From a virus: DNA of 55,018 bases. The translations under genes and the position numbers were made by a program. Shown one piece after another: positions 3,735-50,009 of the stretch (position 1 is its first letter; every line of letters starts with the position of its first letter). The notes under the pieces were generated by a model, which had not been told where the DNA came from, did no database searches, and saw nothing but the letters and a program-made list of their open reading frames with translations. Where the stretch lies: the IMG/VR virus record IMGVR_UViG_3300006903_000014, positions 1 through 55,018 of that record; one strand, written 5' to 3'.

Positions 3735-4619
3735 TCACCTCCCCTTTTTGCTATCTCCGAGCAGCTTCTGCAGCCCGGCGCTCCGGACGTCCTTGACCTG
3801 CTCGAGGCGCAGGCCGTATTCATTGGGCGCCGCGTCCACGACCGCTCCCGGCTTGAGCCTCAGCGGCGTGTCGAAGCCCCGCCAGGCGCCGCGGATCACG
3901 TGCTGAGGCCTCTTGAAGCGCCTCTTGGTAGCGACCACGTACGGCCAGACCCGCTCCAGGCTGCGCGCCATCCGCAGCCGGCCGTCTCCCTGGTAGAGCT
4001 GGTCCGTGTTGCCCCCCCGCATCGTCATCGTGTGGAGCTTGTTCGCCATGAAGACGTTGATCAGGGCCGTACACCAGCCGCTAGAGAGGACCTGAAGGCA
4101 CAGGTCGGTGTCCTCGTTGTACCGACCGCGCCAGCGGAACGGCAGGCTGTTCATAATCAGGATGCAGGAATAGACATGCACGTTCAGGTAGAACGGCGGC
4201 GCGCTCTGGATGCAGAACATCTGATAGTTCAGGCCCGCCATTGCGAGGTTCTCGTAGCGGTCCGCGAAGTCCTCGCACGCCGCCAGCGCCGGCCCGGAGT
4301 CGCACATCAGCCGCCGACCTCGCCACCACCTCCGGATGTAGCGGATGTTGTCGTCCAGGATCCAGTGGCGCTCCGCCCCCGACGCGACCGCGTGGCCCCA
4401 GATCCAATTGCGGGCCGGAGTCGAGCCCAGACCGAGATTCGAGAACGGCAGCACGAGCAGCGAGTCCTCGCCCCACGCGGCCGCGTACGCCTCGCGCTCC
4501 TGCGGCTCGACGACCAGCTTGAACGGCACGCCGTCCGCCCGCAGGAACCGCGCCGTCAGCGCGAGCGCGCGCTCCGAACGCCCCTTGGACGGCACGTAGA
4601 TGGGATAGCGCGGGTTCAC
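3735..4619 (-). CDS. TET-associated-type glycosyltransferase (TAGT), putative DNA-base glycosyltransferase
   Basis: This 294-residue protein has the hallmarks of the GT-A family that accompanies TET/JBP dioxygenases in phages: YPIYVPSKGR (residues 5-14), LVVEPQE (35-41), LLVLPFSNLG (54-63), ARNWIW (69-74) and HWILDDNIR (85-93), where DDN stands in for the metal-binding DxD. YNEDTDLCLQ (167-176) supplies a second acidic site. Family members are proposed or shown to add sugars to 5-hydroxymethylcytosine in phage DNA. The GTG start overlaps the stop of the ParB-like gene (GTGA), so the two are translated together. The dioxygenase and cytosine methyltransferase partners are not in this window. 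Family call is strong; substrate is inferred. Confidence 0.85.
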   Translation of the reverse strand: MNPRYPIYVPSKGRSERALALTARFLRADGVPFKLVVEPQEREAYAAAWGEDSLLVLPFSNLGLGSTPARNWIWGHAVASGAERHWILDDNIRYIRRWWRGRRLMCDSGPALAACEDFADRYENLAMAGLNYQMFCIQSAPPFYLNVHVYSCILIMNSLPFRWRGRYNEDTDLCLQVLSSGWCTALINVFMANKLHTMTMRGGNTDQLYQGDGRLRMARSLERVWPYVVATKRRFKRPQHVIRGAWRGFDTPLRLKPGAVVDAAPNEYGLRLEQVKDVRSAGLQKLLGDSKKGR

Positions 4620-5719
4620 TCGCCCTCGCCGTCGGTCGCGACCGGCGCCGGCTCCGCGCCCGACCTGAAGCGGAGCGACACGAGGTCCTCGCGCTCCCTC
4701 TCCGGCCACCAGATCGACCAGACGGCCCCGTTCTTCTTGCTTACCACCGTGGCTCCGATCTGCTCCATGAAGCGTGCCCGGTCGCCCTCGTTGTCGAACT
4801 GGACGACGAGGCGCTGGACCTGCCCCGCGGGCTCGTATTCGGGCAGGCCCGCCCACGCGGCGGCGGCGTCCTTGTCGCGCAGCTCGCCCGCCGGCCGCGT
4901 GGTCAGCGCGAGGGCCGCGAGCTGGTTCCCGTCGAAGCCGGTCCCCTCGAGCCCGCCGTCTCCCATCAGTTCCTTCAGCAGCTCGGTGAGCGCGCGGTCG
5001 TCCACCTCGGCCAGGTTGCGGATTTCGTTCTCGCTCTCCATGATCCGGAGCGCGCGCGGATCCTCGGGTCCGACCGCGATGCGAACCGCCGGCACGCGCT
5101 CTAGCCCCATCGACTGCGCCGCCTCGACGACGCCGTGGCCCACCAGGATCGTGCCGTCCCGCGCCACCACGATGTTGCGGAAGAACCCGTGTCGCGTGAT
5201 GCTCGCGACCAGGTGCGCTATCTGATCCGCCGGGTGCTTCCGGTAGTTGCGCGGGTGGGGCTTGAGGTCCCTCAGCGCCACGGAGCGGGTCTCCGCGAGC
5301 CCCTCGAAGCCCCACGTCTCCAGGTCGGTCCACTCGTAGAAGTCGGCCAGCTTGTCGTAGTCCCAGTCGCCCGCGTTGCGGTTCAGCCGGACGTTCAGCT
5401 CCTCGACCTCTCCGGGCTCGAGCTGGCGCGAGGGCACGCGCACGTCGACCAGGGCGCCGGGCTCCACGATGGACTGCGCCAGGAGCACCCGCCTCCGCAT
5501 GTGCCCGCCGAGGACGGTCCCGTCCAGGTTCACGGCGATCGGCTCGACGTAGCCGAACCGCCGCAGGCTCTCCGCGAGGTCCGCGGCCTGGCGCTCCGTG
5601 AGCTGGCGCGGGTTCCGCTCCCACTCGACGAGGCTCGACAGCGGCCGCTGCTCCGTGTGCCACTCGATCGCCGCGCGGGTCGGCCGAGCCCTGGCGACCG
5701 GCTTCCTGCGGGGGCTCAC
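4616..5719 (-). CDS. Tandem ParB-like nuclease-domain protein
   Basis: Two ParB N-terminal domains lie in one 367-residue chain. The first (about 25-110) has NPRQLTERQAADLAESLRR and GTVLGGHMRRR at 67-77. The second (about 145-215) has PHPRNYR, a HGFFRNIVV strand and GTILVGHGVVEAA at 189-201. A C-terminal segment near 305-345 (VVQFDNEGDRARFMEQIG, then SIWWP) matches the tail seen on ParB proteins of phage TET and methylase loci. ParB domains there are thought to bind or nick DNA and guide modification. It overlaps the TAGT gene by four bases. The exact role is inferred from association. Confidence 0.85.
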   Translation of the reverse strand: MSPRRKPVARARPTRAAIEWHTEQRPLSSLVEWERNPRQLTERQAADLAESLRRFGYVEPIAVNLDGTVLGGHMRRRVLLAQSIVEPGALVDVRVPSRQLEPGEVEELNVRLNRNAGDWDYDKLADFYEWTDLETWGFEGLAETRSVALRDLKPHPRNYRKHPADQIAHLVASITRHGFFRNIVVARDGTILVGHGVVEAAQSMGLERVPAVRIAVGPEDPRALRIMESENEIRNLAEVDDRALTELLKELMGDGGLEGTGFDGNQLAALALTTRPAGELRDKDAAAAWAGLPEYEPAGQVQRLVVQFDNEGDRARFMEQIGATVVSKKNGAVWSIWWPEREREDLVSLRFRSGAEPAPVATDGEGE

Positions 5720-25556: not shown

Positions 25557-26237
25557 TTACTTCAAGCCGAACGGATGGCCCAGGTTCGCGAATCGCTCGA
25601 GCGTGTCCCAGGCTCCGGGTCTCTCCGGCTGGGGATGGGGCCGCTCCGCCCTCCGATAGAGCAGGTTCGCCCACACGTCGCTGCGGACGAAGAACGCGTT
25701 GACGCCCCGGCTCTCGCAGTAGACCAGCGTGTAGCCCTTCCGCTGCGCCAGGCAGGCCAGGCCCATCAGCGATGCCCCGAAGTAGGCGTCGCCCGACCAG
25801 ACGAAATCGTTGTCCCTCGGGACGCTCGCGATCCACCCCGGTCCGAGCTGCGCGTTGTACTCGATCACGACGACCCGCGGGAGCAGGCGCATGGCCTCCC
25901 ATATCCACAGGTCCTGCCCGTCGACGTCGATCGAGACCAGGTCCGGCTGCGGGACCGTCGGCACGCCGAGCGCCTTGAAGATGGAGTTGACGTTGTCCGG
26001 GGTGATCCTGACCTTCACCACCCCGGCGGACGGGTCGCCGTCCCTGTCGATCCAGACGCCGCTCCAGCCCCGCTGCAGCAGCAGCCGCGTGTTGCACTCC
26101 TCGGCGCGCGGGCCGGTCCCGATCTCGACGTAGTAGCGCGAGCGCTCCCCGATCGCGCGGAAGATGGACTCGATCACGCCGTCCTCGCCGTTCTGGCTGA
26201 AGACCTTCGCCTCCGCGATCGGCAGGGCGGGCGTCAC
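25557..26237 (-). CDS. FkbM-like methyltransferase
   Basis: SQNGEDGVIESIF (residues 14-26), YYVEIGTG (35-42), GVWIDRDGD (60-68) and LVSIDVDGQD (100-109) are the motifs of FkbM-type SAM-dependent methyltransferases. IEYNAQLGP follows at 125-133, and a C-terminal domain has YTLVYCESRGVNAFFVR. Such enzymes methylate sugars or related hydroxyls. The GTG overlaps the stop of a second methyltransferase-like gene (GTGA), so the two probably act together. Substrate unknown; a modified sugar on DNA or virion is one possibility. Confidence 0.7.
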   Translation of the reverse strand: MTPALPIAEAKVFSQNGEDGVIESIFRAIGERSRYYVEIGTGPRAEECNTRLLLQRGWSGVWIDRDGDPSAGVVKVRITPDNVNSIFKALGVPTVPQPDLVSIDVDGQDLWIWEAMRLLPRVVVIEYNAQLGPGWIASVPRDNDFVWSGDAYFGASLMGLACLAQRKGYTLVYCESRGVNAFFVRSDVWANLLYRRAERPHPQPERPGAWDTLERFANLGHPFGLK

Positions 26238-27052
26238 TCCGAGGCCATCCTGTTCATGACCTCGCTGACCCTGCGGCCCCAGCGACGCTCCCACGCGGGG
26301 AGCCCGACGTCGCGGACGAAGGCCAGTGCCTCGGCCGGCGCCATGTCCGGCTCCAGCGCCTTGTAGAACCAGCCCCGGCCCCCCATCGACGGTATCGCCC
26401 GGATGACCCGTCCGAGCATGATGCTCTCCGCCCAGCACCAGACTGGCTTGCGGCCCCAGCGGCGCGCGATCCGGCGGCGGAGCGGCATCACCTCCGACCA
26501 CCAGGTGGATTCGTTCGTGCCCTGCCAGACGTCCAGGAGGTAGTGGTCGAACTCGACGTCCGTGCGTAGCAGGAAGTCGTGGAGGTCGCCGCCGATGATC
26601 GAGACGCCGCCCGGGCGGCAGAGCTGAATGACGTCCGGCGACAGCTCGACCACCGTCACGGCCGCGACTCCGGGCAGGTCGCGCACCTTCGCGGCCAGGA
26701 TCCCGAGGCCAGGCCCGCCCACGAGCACCCGGCCGCTCGGCCGCACCTTCGCGAGCATCTCGTCGATCTGGCGCAGCTCGCGCGGCTCGTCCGTCATCCA
26801 GACCCGCTCGCCCCACGGGTGGAGCTGCACGAGCTGGTGGACCCGGACGGGCACGTCGTAGGTCACGTACTCGACCTTGCGCCGCGTGAGGAACGCCTCG
26901 CGCTGGTCGACGACGGCGACCGGCACGCCCGGGACGAACACGCGGTGCTTGATGGCGTGGATCCCCACGCGCCGCTCGGGCAGGTCCACCGGGGAGCCCG
27001 GCACCCTGGTCTCGCACGTCCCCTCGACCGGCTCGATGTACTGGTCGCTCAA
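26234..27052 (-). CDS. Spermidine-synthase-like class I SAM enzyme
   Basis: The TTG at 27050-27052 follows a GGGGGG site. After a beta-rich N-domain come VLVGGPGLGILA (109-120), VVELSPDVI (134-142), GGDLHDFL (154-161) and DHYLLDVWQGT (169-179), the nucleotide-binding motifs of Rossmann methyltransferases and aminopropyltransferases. The two-domain layout resembles SpeE, but the catalytic aspartates of true spermidine synthases are not clear. It overlaps the FkbM-like gene. It could methylate or aminopropylate a small molecule. Confidence 0.65.
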   Translation of the reverse strand: MSDQYIEPVEGTCETRVPGSPVDLPERRVGIHAIKHRVFVPGVPVAVVDQREAFLTRRKVEYVTYDVPVRVHQLVQLHPWGERVWMTDEPRELRQIDEMLAKVRPSGRVLVGGPGLGILAAKVRDLPGVAAVTVVELSPDVIQLCRPGGVSIIGGDLHDFLLRTDVEFDHYLLDVWQGTNESTWWSEVMPLRRRIARRWGRKPVWCWAESIMLGRVIRAIPSMGGRGWFYKALEPDMAPAEALAFVRDVGLPAWERRWGRRVSEVMNRMASE

Positions 27053-27066
27053 CCTTGCCCCCCTTC

Positions 27067-27568
27067 TCAGAATTCGGCGCCGGGGCGCTGCTTCGCCCGG
27101 CCCACGCCGCTCTCGTCCGACACCAGCCGCTGCTCGAAGCCGAACGGGAACCGCAGCCCCGGCTCGGCCAGGGGCGAACAGGTGATACTGGTTGGCGGAG
27201 TCGACGCGCCGGCTCTCCGCCGGGAACAGCTCCACGGCCTCGCGCTCCGCCGACAGGATGGCGTTCTTCACCCGCTGCAGCTCCCGCCAGTCTCGGATGG
27301 GCTCGCGATCGTTGCGCTTGATGGAGAGGTGGAGCAGGGCCGGCCAGTTCTGCGGCCCCGCGTTCCTGTAGAGCGCGACCGTGTACAGCTCGTTCTTCCA
27401 GACCTCGCCCGCGGCCAGGTGCCCCTTGACCCACGCGGCAAGCCGGTTCTCGTCCACGATCCCCAGCTCGGCGTAGAAGTCGGGCCGCGCGCGGAAGTCG
27501 CGCAGCGTCTCCGCCACGGCGCGCGCGACCTCGTCCGCTGGGTACTCCGCCCGCTCGAACGGGGTCAC
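27067..27568 (-). CDS. DUF7694-like protein (copy 2), frame broken near its 3' end
   Basis: GTG start at 27568 in GTGA. The core is HLSIKRNDREPIRDWRELQR, VKNAILSAEREAVELFPAES and VDSANQYHLF, matching the gene at 18379-18762. After HLF the frame runs into nonsense, while one base over it reads LAEPGLRFPFGFEQRLVSDE and ends at a TGA (27067-27069). Removing one C from a CCCC run near 27170 would restore one continuous protein. This is either a sequencing error or a +1 shift; I favour an error. Confidence 0.6.
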
Positions 27569-27708
27569 ACGCGCCCCCGCAGCGCCGCGATGAAGTTGGC
27601 GCAATAGCCGCAGGTACACCAGCGCTTCGGGATATAGGGCGCGTGCCCGAGTCGGCGCCAGTATGCCACGGGGCCGAGGCCGAGCGCCCGCTCCAGAACG
27701 GCCCTCAC
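27565..27708 (-). CDS. Small protein with CTCGYC motif, 47 aa
   Basis: GTG at 27706-27708 overlaps the stop of the coiled-coil gene (GTGA). Sequence: helix (AVLERALGLGPVAYWRRLGH), then PKRWCTCGYCANF and a short helix. One small metal site is likely. The same frame stays open upstream to 28029, but that stretch is overlapped by a better gene. Confidence 0.5.
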   Translation of the reverse strand: MRAVLERALGLGPVAYWRRLGHAPYIPKRWCTCGYCANFIAALRGRV

Positions 27709-30353: not shown

Positions 30354-31868
30354 CTACTTCGCTCCTTGCATCTGCGAGAGGTCCCGGCCGCCCCGGAGCG
30401 CAGCCTCCGGTCGGTCCGCGCGATACGCGCCCTCATGCTGGGCGCTCAGGAAGCGCCCCTCCGCGAGCTGGCGCGCCTTCTTGATGGAGTCGGGGTCCGC
30501 CTTCGACACGGGCACGATCCGCCGCGACGCCTCGACCAGGCCGCAGTTCAGGCGATAGGCCAGCTCGCAGCAGTTGCGGATCTCGGCCCCCGTCCAGCCC
30601 GCGTCGTCGGGCAGCTCGGCGTCCTCGATCCCCCGGCGCTCGCGATGCAGCGCCCAGATCGCGGCGCGCTCCTCGGCCGACGGCAGGTCGAAGAACCAGA
30701 TGCCCATCCAGAACCGGCGACGCAGCTCGGGCGAGAGCGAGTCCAGGCGGTTCGCGGTCCCCACGACCAGGACGCGGTTGCGCCCCACGGCCTTGACGAC
30801 CTTCATCATGTCGCGGATGCCGCGCTCGCTCTGCCCCACGTACTCGCCCTTGGTCGCGCCGAGGTCCCCCGATAGGAGCGGCACGCGCATCGTCCCGGCC
30901 AGGCCGCGCGCGAAGTGGCTCTTGCCGGTGCCGGGCGGCCCATACAGGATGACGCCGCTCCAGCCGTTGTCCTCCATCTCCCGCAGGATCACGCCATGCT
31001 GGTCATCGGAGACGCCCGACGTGTCGCGCCCGTGCCCGGTCCCGCCGAGCATCTTCTCAATCTCATCCAGGTGGAAGACGGCCTCCGGCGGCACCGGGCC
31101 GGCGGCGAGCTGGCGCGCGAAGCCGCTGATGGACGGCAGGCCGCGCAGGTCGTCGAGGGAGTCGCGCCCATAGACCAGCTCGATCCCCCGCGTGTTGATC
31201 GCGACCCGCTTCCGGTCCCACAGCTCGTCGAGGCGCAGACCGCTCTTGCGCATGCTCATGGCGGCGATAGTCTCGGCCTCGAAGGCGGAGAGGCCGCGCA
31301 CGGCCGCCACCGCCGGCTCGAGCCCGCTCTTGGGCAGGTCCACCCCGCCGTCCTTGTACAGCGCCTTCAGGATGCCCGCCAGCGCCGCGTCATCCGGGAG
31401 CTGCTCGTCGAGTACCACGACGTCGTGGCGCAGCTCGCTCGGGAGCGGCATGTCGGGCCCCATCAGGACGAGCATCCGGCCGTCGGCCTTGTACCTGTTC
31501 CGCAGGTTCGCCACCGCCTGCGCCACGATCGGGTCGGCGATGTGCCGGTGCGCGTTCCACATCAGGAGCAGGCTGCGCCGCGGGAACTTGTCGGCGAGCT
31601 GGAGCGCGACGTCCGGCTGCCGGCTCTGAGAGGCCAGCTCGTCCGGCGGCATGTCGAGCCCCGCCACGGCTGCCGCCCCGGCGTCGTTCAGCGCGACCAG
31701 GCCGCGGCAGGCATCCCACTGCACCTTGGGGCTCTCGGACGGGATCGCGCTGCAGATGCGGTCGACCAGGGCGTGCTGGTCCGGCGTCATCAACCCGACC
31801 ACCGGCGTCGAGACGTTGCGCGCCGAGACCAGGGTGTCGACGATGTCCTTCTCCGCGCGGCCCGTCAT
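30354..31868 (-). CDS. Ycf46-like AAA+ ATPase with Walker B placed before Walker A
   Basis: Residues 90-240 resemble the N-terminal inactive ATPase-like domain of Ycf46 (SLLLMWNAHRH; RMLVLMGPDMPLPSELRHDV; VVLDEQLPDD). The C-terminal AAA domain has VFHLDEIEKM (264-273), then ILYGPPGTGKS (307-317), VVGTANRLDSLSPELRRRF (368-386) and WFFDLPSAEERAAIW (391-405). The acidic DEIE segment and its helix (ILREMEDNGWSGVI) lie upstream of the P-loop rather than between P-loop and sensor 1. An ATP-driven remodelling or protein-quality role is inferred. ATG overlaps the upstream stop. Confidence 0.8.
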   Translation of the reverse strand: MTGRAEKDIVDTLVSARNVSTPVVGLMTPDQHALVDRICSAIPSESPKVQWDACRGLVALNDAGAAAVAGLDMPPDELASQSRQPDVALQLADKFPRRSLLLMWNAHRHIADPIVAQAVANLRNRYKADGRMLVLMGPDMPLPSELRHDVVVLDEQLPDDAALAGILKALYKDGGVDLPKSGLEPAVAAVRGLSAFEAETIAAMSMRKSGLRLDELWDRKRVAINTRGIELVYGRDSLDDLRGLPSISGFARQLAAGPVPPEAVFHLDEIEKMLGGTGHGRDTSGVSDDQHGVILREMEDNGWSGVILYGPPGTGKSHFARGLAGTMRVPLLSGDLGATKGEYVGQSERGIRDMMKVVKAVGRNRVLVVGTANRLDSLSPELRRRFWMGIWFFDLPSAEERAAIWALHRERRGIEDAELPDDAGWTGAEIRNCCELAYRLNCGLVEASRRIVPVSKADPDSIKKARQLAEGRFLSAQHEGAYRADRPEAALRGGRDLSQMQGAK

Positions 31869-48172: not shown

Positions 48173-48840
48173 GGCGTCCTCCCTCGGAGAGCGAACGGGT
48201 AGTTGTCGGGACCCCAGGCGAACGGGGGCCCCAGCTCCGCGAGAGCGTCGCCCTCCGCGACCGTCTCGAGGCCGCCGGCTTCGAAGTGCGCGCGCCAGGC
48301 CGCCGGGTCCATGCAGAGGTAATGATTGCGCGGACCGGCCGAAATGCCAAGCCGGAAGTGGGGCGGCGTGGACGGCACCGTCGCCAGGATCATGTGCCGC
48401 GCGACCCGCCCCAGCTCGGCGAGCACGCGCGGCTGGAGCTCAAGGGGCAGGTGCTCCACGATGTCGAGCGCCACGACGACCTCGAAGGCGCCGTCCACGA
48501 ACGGCAGCGCGCAGGCGTCGGCGACAGCGCCGGCCCGCGTCCGGAAGTCCTCCCCGAGGTCCACCCCGACGGCGCGCAGCCCCCGGTCCCTCAGCTCCTC
48601 GACCAGGATCCCCCGGCCGCAGCCGAGGTCCAGCACGCGCCAGTCCGGCGGCAGGTCCTGGCCCCGGAGCAGCAGCTTGCGCAGCGCCAGGCAGACGCCG
48701 ACGGCGCTCCTGCGCCAGCGGTCCCTGTTGTCCCAGTGGCCGGGGCCGCCGTAGCCGCTCTCGAATCCTACGTCCTCGCCGAGGTTGTAGCGGGGGCCGT
48801 ACCTGGTGCGCAGGTCGGCCCTCAGCTCCTCGGGGGTCAA
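48169..48840 (-). CDS. SAM-dependent methyltransferase within the structural operon
   Basis: VLDLGCGRG (residues 69-77), VGVDLGEDF (91-99) and VVVALDIVEHLP are motifs I, II and post-II of class I methyltransferases. The N-terminus has LGEDVGFESGYGGPGHWDNR. TTG start overlaps the stop of the glycosyltransferase gene (TTGA). Probably methylates a sugar, lipid or protein substrate linked to the glycosyltransferase product. Confidence 0.75.
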   Translation of the reverse strand: MTPEELRADLRTRYGPRYNLGEDVGFESGYGGPGHWDNRDRWRRSAVGVCLALRKLLLRGQDLPPDWRVLDLGCGRGILVEELRDRGLRAVGVDLGEDFRTRAGAVADACALPFVDGAFEVVVALDIVEHLPLELQPRVLAELGRVARHMILATVPSTPPHFRLGISAGPRNHYLCMDPAAWRAHFEAGGLETVAEGDALAELGPPFAWGPDNYPFALRGRTP

Positions 48841-50009
48841 TTGGGCTGCCCCGCCGGCCCACCAGGCGCCTCGCTGGCGTGAGCGCCGGCCGGATGCCAG
48901 GGATGGATGCCCGCGGGGCCGTTCTGCGCGTCCCTGGGGGCGCCCAGCGCCTCGGTGGGCTCGGCGCCCGGGAATGTTCCACGTGGAACGTCCTGCCCGG
49001 CGGCCGCCTCGATCGCCCGGAGCAGCCCCTCCGCCGAGGCGCCCCAGGTCATCGAGCGGGCCCGGTGGACGCCCATGAGCCGGCGTGCCTCCAGGTCCGG
49101 GGAGCCGAACCCGGCCCGCGCGGTCCGCAGGCTGTCGGCCAGGTCGGCGATGCTGGCGACCTCGAGCCGGTAGGCCGCGTCCCCGTATCGGATCGAGACG
49201 ACGTCCCGCGTCGGCACGACGATCCCGTGGGAGTCGTCGAGGAAGTCCGCGTGGCCGCCGGTCAGCGGCGAGACGACCAGGCACCCCGCTGCCATCGCCT
49301 CGAGCGCCGGCAGGCCGAAGCCCTCGCCGTAGGACGTCGAGACGAACACGTCCGCCGAGGCGTAGAGCGCCAGCATGTCCGCCGGCTCCAGGTCGCGCCC
49401 GTCCACGAGCACGTGGTCCTGGCCGTTCATCCCCCGCACGATCCTGTCGGCCGGGTCCGTGGCGATGGTCTTCACGTAGAGCTGGGGCGGGTCCACCGCG
49501 CCCTCGAAGGCGCGCGCCCACGCCGGCGCCAGCCGGTCCCAGCCCTTGCGCTCGATCGGCGAGCCGACCCACAGGAATCGTCGCCTCGGCCCCGTCCCGG
49601 CCGCCATCGCGATGGTGCGCCGCGAGTAGTCTGTCGAGAGGAAGGACTCATGCACGCCGAGCGGGACCACCTGCGCCTCGAGCCCGTGCGCGCGCCAGAC
49701 CTCGGCGCAGTACGTCGACGGGACCACGAGGCGATCCGCCCTCGAGATCGGGTCGAGCAGGGCAGGGGGTATGACCGGCGCCTCCCACATAGTGAACAGC
49801 ACGTTGATCTTGCCCGGGACGGGCGCGAACCAGTGGGGCGGACAGAAGTGAAGGTGCGCCCTCGGGTCCGACCCCGCGGCGCCCGCGTCCCTCAGCGCCG
49901 GCCCCACGCGGCGCCTGAGCGCGTCGTAGAGATTGAAGGCGGCCGAGAGGTAGCCGCGGGCGATCCCGAGCCCTGCCGGGAAGCGGTAGTGGCGCCACGC
50001 CAGCTTCAC
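48837..50009 (-). CDS. GT4-type glycosyltransferase within the structural operon
   Basis: GT-B fold: the C-terminal domain has FLWVGSPIERKGWDRL, LYASADVFVSTSYGEGFGLP and ALEAMAAGCLVVSPLTGGHA, the usual donor-sugar site with its E-x7-E. The N-terminal domain binds the acceptor. A disordered Pro/Gly tail follows. Encoded between tail-terminator-type and tail-tube genes, it may glycosylate virion proteins. GTG start in GTGA. Confidence 0.8.
   Translation of the reverse strand: MKLAWRHYRFPAGLGIARGYLSAAFNLYDALRRRVGPALRDAGAAGSDPRAHLHFCPPHWFAPVPGKINVLFTMWEAPVIPPALLDPISRADRLVVPSTYCAEVWRAHGLEAQVVPLGVHESFLSTDYSRRTIAMAAGTGPRRRFLWVGSPIERKGWDRLAPAWARAFEGAVDPPQLYVKTIATDPADRIVRGMNGQDHVLVDGRDLEPADMLALYASADVFVSTSYGEGFGLPALEAMAAGCLVVSPLTGGHADFLDDSHGIVVPTRDVVSIRYGDAAYRLEVASIADLADSLRTARAGFGSPDLEARRLMGVHRARSMTWGASAEGLLRAIEAAAGQDVPRGTFPGAEPTEALGAPRDAQNGPAGIHPWHPAGAHASEAPGGPAGQPN

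Follow-up and report, generated by a model that had tools for sequence, protein, structure and literature searches.

Evidence for an exchange of adjacent segments within the core of a Ycf46-type AAA+ ATPase family of phages

Introduction

AAA+ motors occur in all life, and the strand connections of their core are regarded as fixed. The standard AAA order places Walker A first, Walker B second, and sensor 1 third. This normal order is found in Ycf46 proteins of phages (Pseudomonas phage SM1, Rhodobacter phage RcTiptonus, and Aeromonas phage HJ05), of bacteria, and of plastids, and it sets them apart from the phage ATPase described here, with which they share the same two-part architecture and the AAA core motifs. 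Among other P-loop proteins, circularly permuted GTPases have been described, namely the YRG family YjeQ/YqeH/YlqF and cpRAS (PMC2430557), and an analysis of P-loop topology in eLife found that P-loop folds vary topologically by insertion of β-α elements (PMC7758060). In the open-access literature, our searches turned up no account of a permuted AAA+ core or of a Walker B that precedes Walker A; this absence is not proof, and an internal rearrangement of the AAA+ core seems to be previously undescribed.

Results

The window, by which we mean the whole 55,018-nucleotide stretch analyzed here, is the metagenomic IMG/VR virus record IMGVR_UViG_3300006903_000014, and matches to tail tape-measure and minor-tail profiles indicate a tailed phage. 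Its Ycf46-like ATPase begins with an N-terminal AAA-like domain that has no Walker motifs (approximately aa 6 to 235), followed by the AAA core, and there is no P-loop within aa 1 to 300 of the 504-aa protein, as in the Ycf46-like layout. In this protein, the standard order is violated, as Walker B comes first: a hydrophobic strand ending in DE (VFHLDE, aa 264 to 269) carries D268 and E269, and both residues lie inside a moved 41-aa segment located immediately ahead of the Walker A strand (Table 1).

The first-pass annotation had placed VFHLDEIEKM and its helix at aa 264 to 306 and GPPGTGKS at aa 310 to 317, with GTAN after them, and this placement holds: AVFHLDEIEK runs from aa 263, GPPGTGKS is at aa 310 to 317, and GTAN is at aa 370 to 373. 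It had also claimed that the P-loop is not followed by another Walker B, and we agree: the sole conserved acidic strand end in that region is D335 after β2, an Asp that is also present in normal-order homologues. A hidden second Walker B was rejected on this ground. The helix that had been written as ILREMEDNGWSGVI does precede the P-loop, but it stops at about residue 301, and the end of that string already falls within the Walker A strand (DSSP, H286-301 and E304-309).

Table 1. Coordinates of the ATPase, its motifs, the gene cassette, and other genes of the window
Feature	Position	Strand	Evidence or remarks
Rearranged Ycf46-like AAA+ ATPase	30354..31868	minus	504-aa ORF; profile, AlphaFold2, superposition
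Moved β3-α3 segment, AVFHLDEIEK...HGVILREMEDNGW	30960..31082 (aa 263-303)	minus	Profile match (normal-order positions 85-123), conservation, DSSP
Walker A, GPPGTGKS	30918..30941 (aa 310-317)	minus	Profile, AlphaFold2, conservation; fits GxxxxGK[ST]
Sensor 1, GTAN	30750..30761 (aa 370-373)	minus	End of β4, which directly follows α2
DUF1257 (Ycf35-like) protein, 165 aa	29856..30353	minus	Pfam DUF1257, E 7.5e-5; cassette profile, E 3.8e-40
DUF2997 protein, 61 aa	29667..29852	minus	Pfam DUF2997, E 2.7e-12; cassette profile
Small conserved cassette protein (cluster 5), ~89 aa	29401..29670	minus	Cassette profile, E 2.1e-27; no Pfam match
DUF3150-like protein, 320 aa	28442..29404	minus	Cassette profile, E 4.1e-109
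ParB-like/DNA methyltransferase-related protein	4616..5719		PHROG matches, Pfam ParB_N
Single ORF, DUF7694 region then methyltransferase-like region	26234..27619		
Group 1 glycosyltransferase	48837..50009		Also a Pfam GT4-conflict match

When the native protein was compared with a normal-order profile built from 74 normal-order phage AAA cores, it gave three partial matches that are out of order yet tile the profile: profile positions 26 to 85 at aa 305 to 364 (53.8 bits), positions 85 to 123 at aa 263 to 301 (21.2 bits), and positions 125 to 203 at aa 364 to 435 (36.4 bits). Moving aa 263 to 303 in silico to a point before residue 365 produced a single match of 146.5 bits (versus 53.8 bits), and the controls, which were other insertion sites, a shuffled segment, and other segments, all scored lower than this. 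With two profiles, returning the segment improved the score of every one of the 69 members; with the sister-group profile, the median gain was 191 bits. These scores strongly support homology of the moved piece to the normal β3-α3. Pfam AAA also matches the window protein in two stretches, and a warning follows for annotation in general, namely that profile searches show such proteins as fragmentary AAA matches.

An AlphaFold2 model computed with 69 family sequences (pLDDT 93.8, pTM 0.89) gives the chain order β3 (263-267), α3 (286-301), β1 (304-309), α1 (316-327), β2 (331-334), α2 (344-362), β4 (366-372), and β5 (390-392), with linkers of approximately 2 to 6 residues. A model of a normal-order sister made as a control reached a pLDDT of 76.9, which is too poor for side-by-side comparison. 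A fold search of BFVD returned best matches annotated ycf46. Against solved structures, the window model aligns to p97/Cdc48 D1-D2 over aa 6 to 473 (Z 18.4, 396 residues, 4.9 Å) and to p97 D2 alone (6g2v) over 198 residues at 2.5 Å, across model residues 230 to 474. The latter stretch minus aa 258 to 303 comprises 199 residues, about the number superposed, and therefore, apart from the moved segment and its lead-in, nearly the whole core superposes. By this arithmetic, the superposition implies that the predicted fold would leave a strand-wide gap for β3 to fill.

Covariation was analyzed in 129 rearranged proteins (approximately 101 effective sequences), a set that superseded an earlier, noisy MI run with 57 effective sequences; its signal is weak to modest, and it is independent of the structure model except for the strand limits, which were taken from the model. 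The strongest links of the moved segment include α3 to α2 (289-348, 301-359, and 297-359), which is the strongest helix pair, as well as β3 to α2 and β3 to β4 (265-368 and 264-366). Among ten strand pairs, the canonical neighbors of the order 5-1-4-3-2 rank 1 to 4 by top-3 and top-5 scores, while by top-1 or top-10 scores the top four hold just three of the four canonical pairs. These links point to a moved strand that lies beside β4 and a helix that lies beside α2, as in ordinary AAA+ proteins. The sheet order 5-1-4-3-2 is thus favored by covariation and by the p97 D2 superposition outside the segment, and the packing is deduced from these two.

Covariation does not distinguish intrasubunit from intersubunit contacts, and AAA+ proteins are ring-shaped oligomers, both of which would suit a domain swap in trans, whereby the moved β3-α3 fills the sheet gap of the neighboring subunit and the active site is complete only in the oligomer. 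We consider such a swap very improbable, given that the connections are very short (α3 ends at 301 and β1 starts at 304; α2 ends at 362 and β4 starts at 366) and that the monomer AlphaFold2 model is confident at these short connections.

The putative catalytic residues are strongly conserved among the 69 members examined: D268 and E269 are each present in 68, and K316, the sensor 1 residue N373, and R385 are present in all 69. Strict DE is absent in two members, which have DD (L010) and EE (L087). From its position, R385 is probably the arginine finger, and because of this pattern of conservation, we infer that the protein is a working ATPase that would hydrolyze ATP. The P-loop itself is more relaxed, as the Gly before Lys316 (Walker A position 315) is replaced by Ala in 18 members and by Ser in 6, a total of 24/69, with examples such as GPPGCAKS and GVPGVSKS; a relaxed P-loop is rare in the normal-order set, where it occurs in L173 only (GKPGCSKS). 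The relaxed Walker A of one-third of the members could be taken to mean that the leading DEIEK is a decoy, that Walker B function has been lost with nucleotide binding alone remaining, and that the segment is kept for another role. We regard this as very improbable in view of the near-complete retention of D268 and E269, the invariance of the sensor 1 Asn and of Arg385, and the covariation of the segment with α2 and β4.

Searching IMG/VR with the window protein alone yielded ten relatives, and a scan with an alignment of these ten and the protein of Tunturiibacter phage Tunturi_3 yielded 76 loci, partly on the same contigs. Walker B lies approximately 43 to 53 residues before Walker A in 87/87 loci of these first two viral scans, as judged by a motif pattern, with the few rows missed by the pattern inspected directly and found to have the same order. 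In normal-order viral homologues, Walker B trails Walker A by approximately 55 aa. Divergent members used as queries in another scan added 80 loci; the rearranged pattern was recognized automatically in 76, 2 more have a P-loop outside the motif pattern, and 2 have broken reading frames. In L250 and L253, the rearranged ATPase gene has a broken reading frame, which may reflect sequencing error or decay. Altogether, 129 non-identical viral proteins, from many metagenomes and including one from a cultured phage, have the rearranged order; the latter is gp103 of Tunturi_3, which is annotated only as "ATPase." Chance as the source of this order is excluded, because all 87 loci and nearly all of the further 80 keep it and normal-order homologues differ. 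Although the window derives from metagenomic data, a chimeric assembly or a rearrangement confined to one contig is already refuted by the identical order in these 129 proteins and in a complete cultured-phage genome.

No cellular copies of the rearranged ATPase were found in two scans of genome contigs that used short exact peptide patterns, and none of the loci inspected, of either order, contained an intermediate with both segment copies.

In a tree built after realignment of the segment, one branch (SH-aLRT 100) separates the rearranged proteins from all others. The normal-order homologues found on a Candidatus Manganitrophus plasmid and in IMG/VR join this clade, also with an SH-aLRT of 100; the family nests among Ycf46-like proteins. 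The trees are quick ones made without bootstrap, with a root set by the chosen outgroup Javan368, and the placement of normal-order phage homologues as sister to the rearranged clade is well supported, though not final. The sisters (WDT73634.1 of the Candidatus Manganitrophus plasmid and IMG/VR loci L258 to L283) resemble the rearranged family in having a similar N-terminal domain and a GAEI signature after the lid helix, and they differ from it in the position of Walker B, which again falls approximately 55 aa after Walker A. All three plasmid relatives examined have the normal order. One plasmid locus (L255, CP114554.1 110551-121729, Candidatus Manganitrophus) combines a normal-order Ycf46 ATPase gene with DUF1257, DUF2997, and DUF3150 genes, an equivalent of the phage cassette outside phages.

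The ATPase gene of the window is followed by genes for the DUF1257 protein, the DUF2997 protein, the small protein, and the DUF3150-like protein, all abutting or overlapping. DUF3150-like genes were found near 82/87 rearranged loci, DUF2997-like genes near 81/87, and DUF1257-like genes near 40/87; near 23 sister loci, the counts were 22/23 for DUF1257, 22/23 for DUF2997, and 16/23 for DUF3150-like genes. One member of the DUF3150-like family matches Pfam DUF3150 at E 1.3e-4, below the Pfam cut-off. In phages, DUF3150 usually partners MoxR/CobS-type ATPases. The link between DUF1257 and DUF2997 extends beyond phages, as a DUF2997-ycf35(DUF1257)-ferredoxin cluster has been reported in Synechocystis (PMC4284462). 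We suggest that the DUF1257, DUF2997, and DUF3150-like proteins are adaptors or cofactors of the ATPase. Elsewhere in the window, the ORF with the DUF7694 region has relatives near five rearranged-ATPase loci.

Discussion

Our results are best explained as a whole by an exchange of the adjacent blocks [β1-α1-β2-α2] and [β3-α3] in the core of a Ycf46-type phage AAA+ ATPase, and we hold this explanation with high confidence. The first-pass annotation had left a choice between an internal segment swap and a circular permutation of a working AAA core; the profile comparisons, the AlphaFold2 model, the p97 D2 superposition, covariation, the conserved residues, and the tree all favor the segment swap. 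Circular permutation of the entire domain is ruled out because β4, α4, β5, and the lid stay in place and keep their order.

After the block exchange, each piece would still occupy its canonical position in the 5-1-4-3-2 sheet of the same subunit, and three connections would be rewired, from α0 to β3, from α3 to β1, and from α2 to β4. An ordinary ATP site would then be formed by Lys316, Asp268/Glu269, and Asn373, together with arginine 385 of the next subunit. By analogy with p97/Cdc48, the protein may assemble into a ring of two tiers, the upper one inactive, in which ATP-driven movement might remodel a protein or complex.

The rearranged order is conserved and real, and its single origin is strongly supported. 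Because the rearranged proteins form one clade and the normal-order sisters have largely the same neighbors, a single rearrangement within an existing cassette explains the family. The change probably arose once, in a normal-order ancestor already bearing the cassette, and might have proceeded either through transposition of the segment or through an internal duplication and subsequent loss.

It is tempting to speculate that this is the first natural AAA+ family whose catalytic core is rearranged and that the rewiring goes beyond neutral reshuffling to change how ATP cutting is coupled to pore-loop movement, with the Walker B helix leading straight to the Walker A strand and the pore-loop helix α2 leading straight to the sensor 1 strand; taken together, we consider these two propositions doubtful, although worth entertaining.

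The widespread rearranged family and its normal-order sisters, with much the same cassette, constitute a matched pair, which lets one ask whether P-loop NTPase function needs particular strand connections or the final packing only. The comparison also bears on how P-loop folds evolved from β-α pieces.

The window ATPase is Ycf46-like by descent, motifs, and neighbors, yet it departs from the standard motif order. With p97/Cdc48, Vps4, and other classical AAA proteins, it shares a fold (p97 D1-D2 and D2 alone), while these proteins have the normal order and 16 to 24% identity to it, and p97 D1 bears Walker motifs that its N-terminal domain lacks. The closest conceptual precedents are the circularly permuted GTPases (PMC2430557), which are likewise P-loop NTPases with altered motif order and which keep a working site; they are, however, whole-domain permutations in another family, whereas the phage protein appears to carry an internal swap in an AAA+ core. 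The rearranged family may be a recent natural example of the topological variation described for P-loop folds (PMC7758060).
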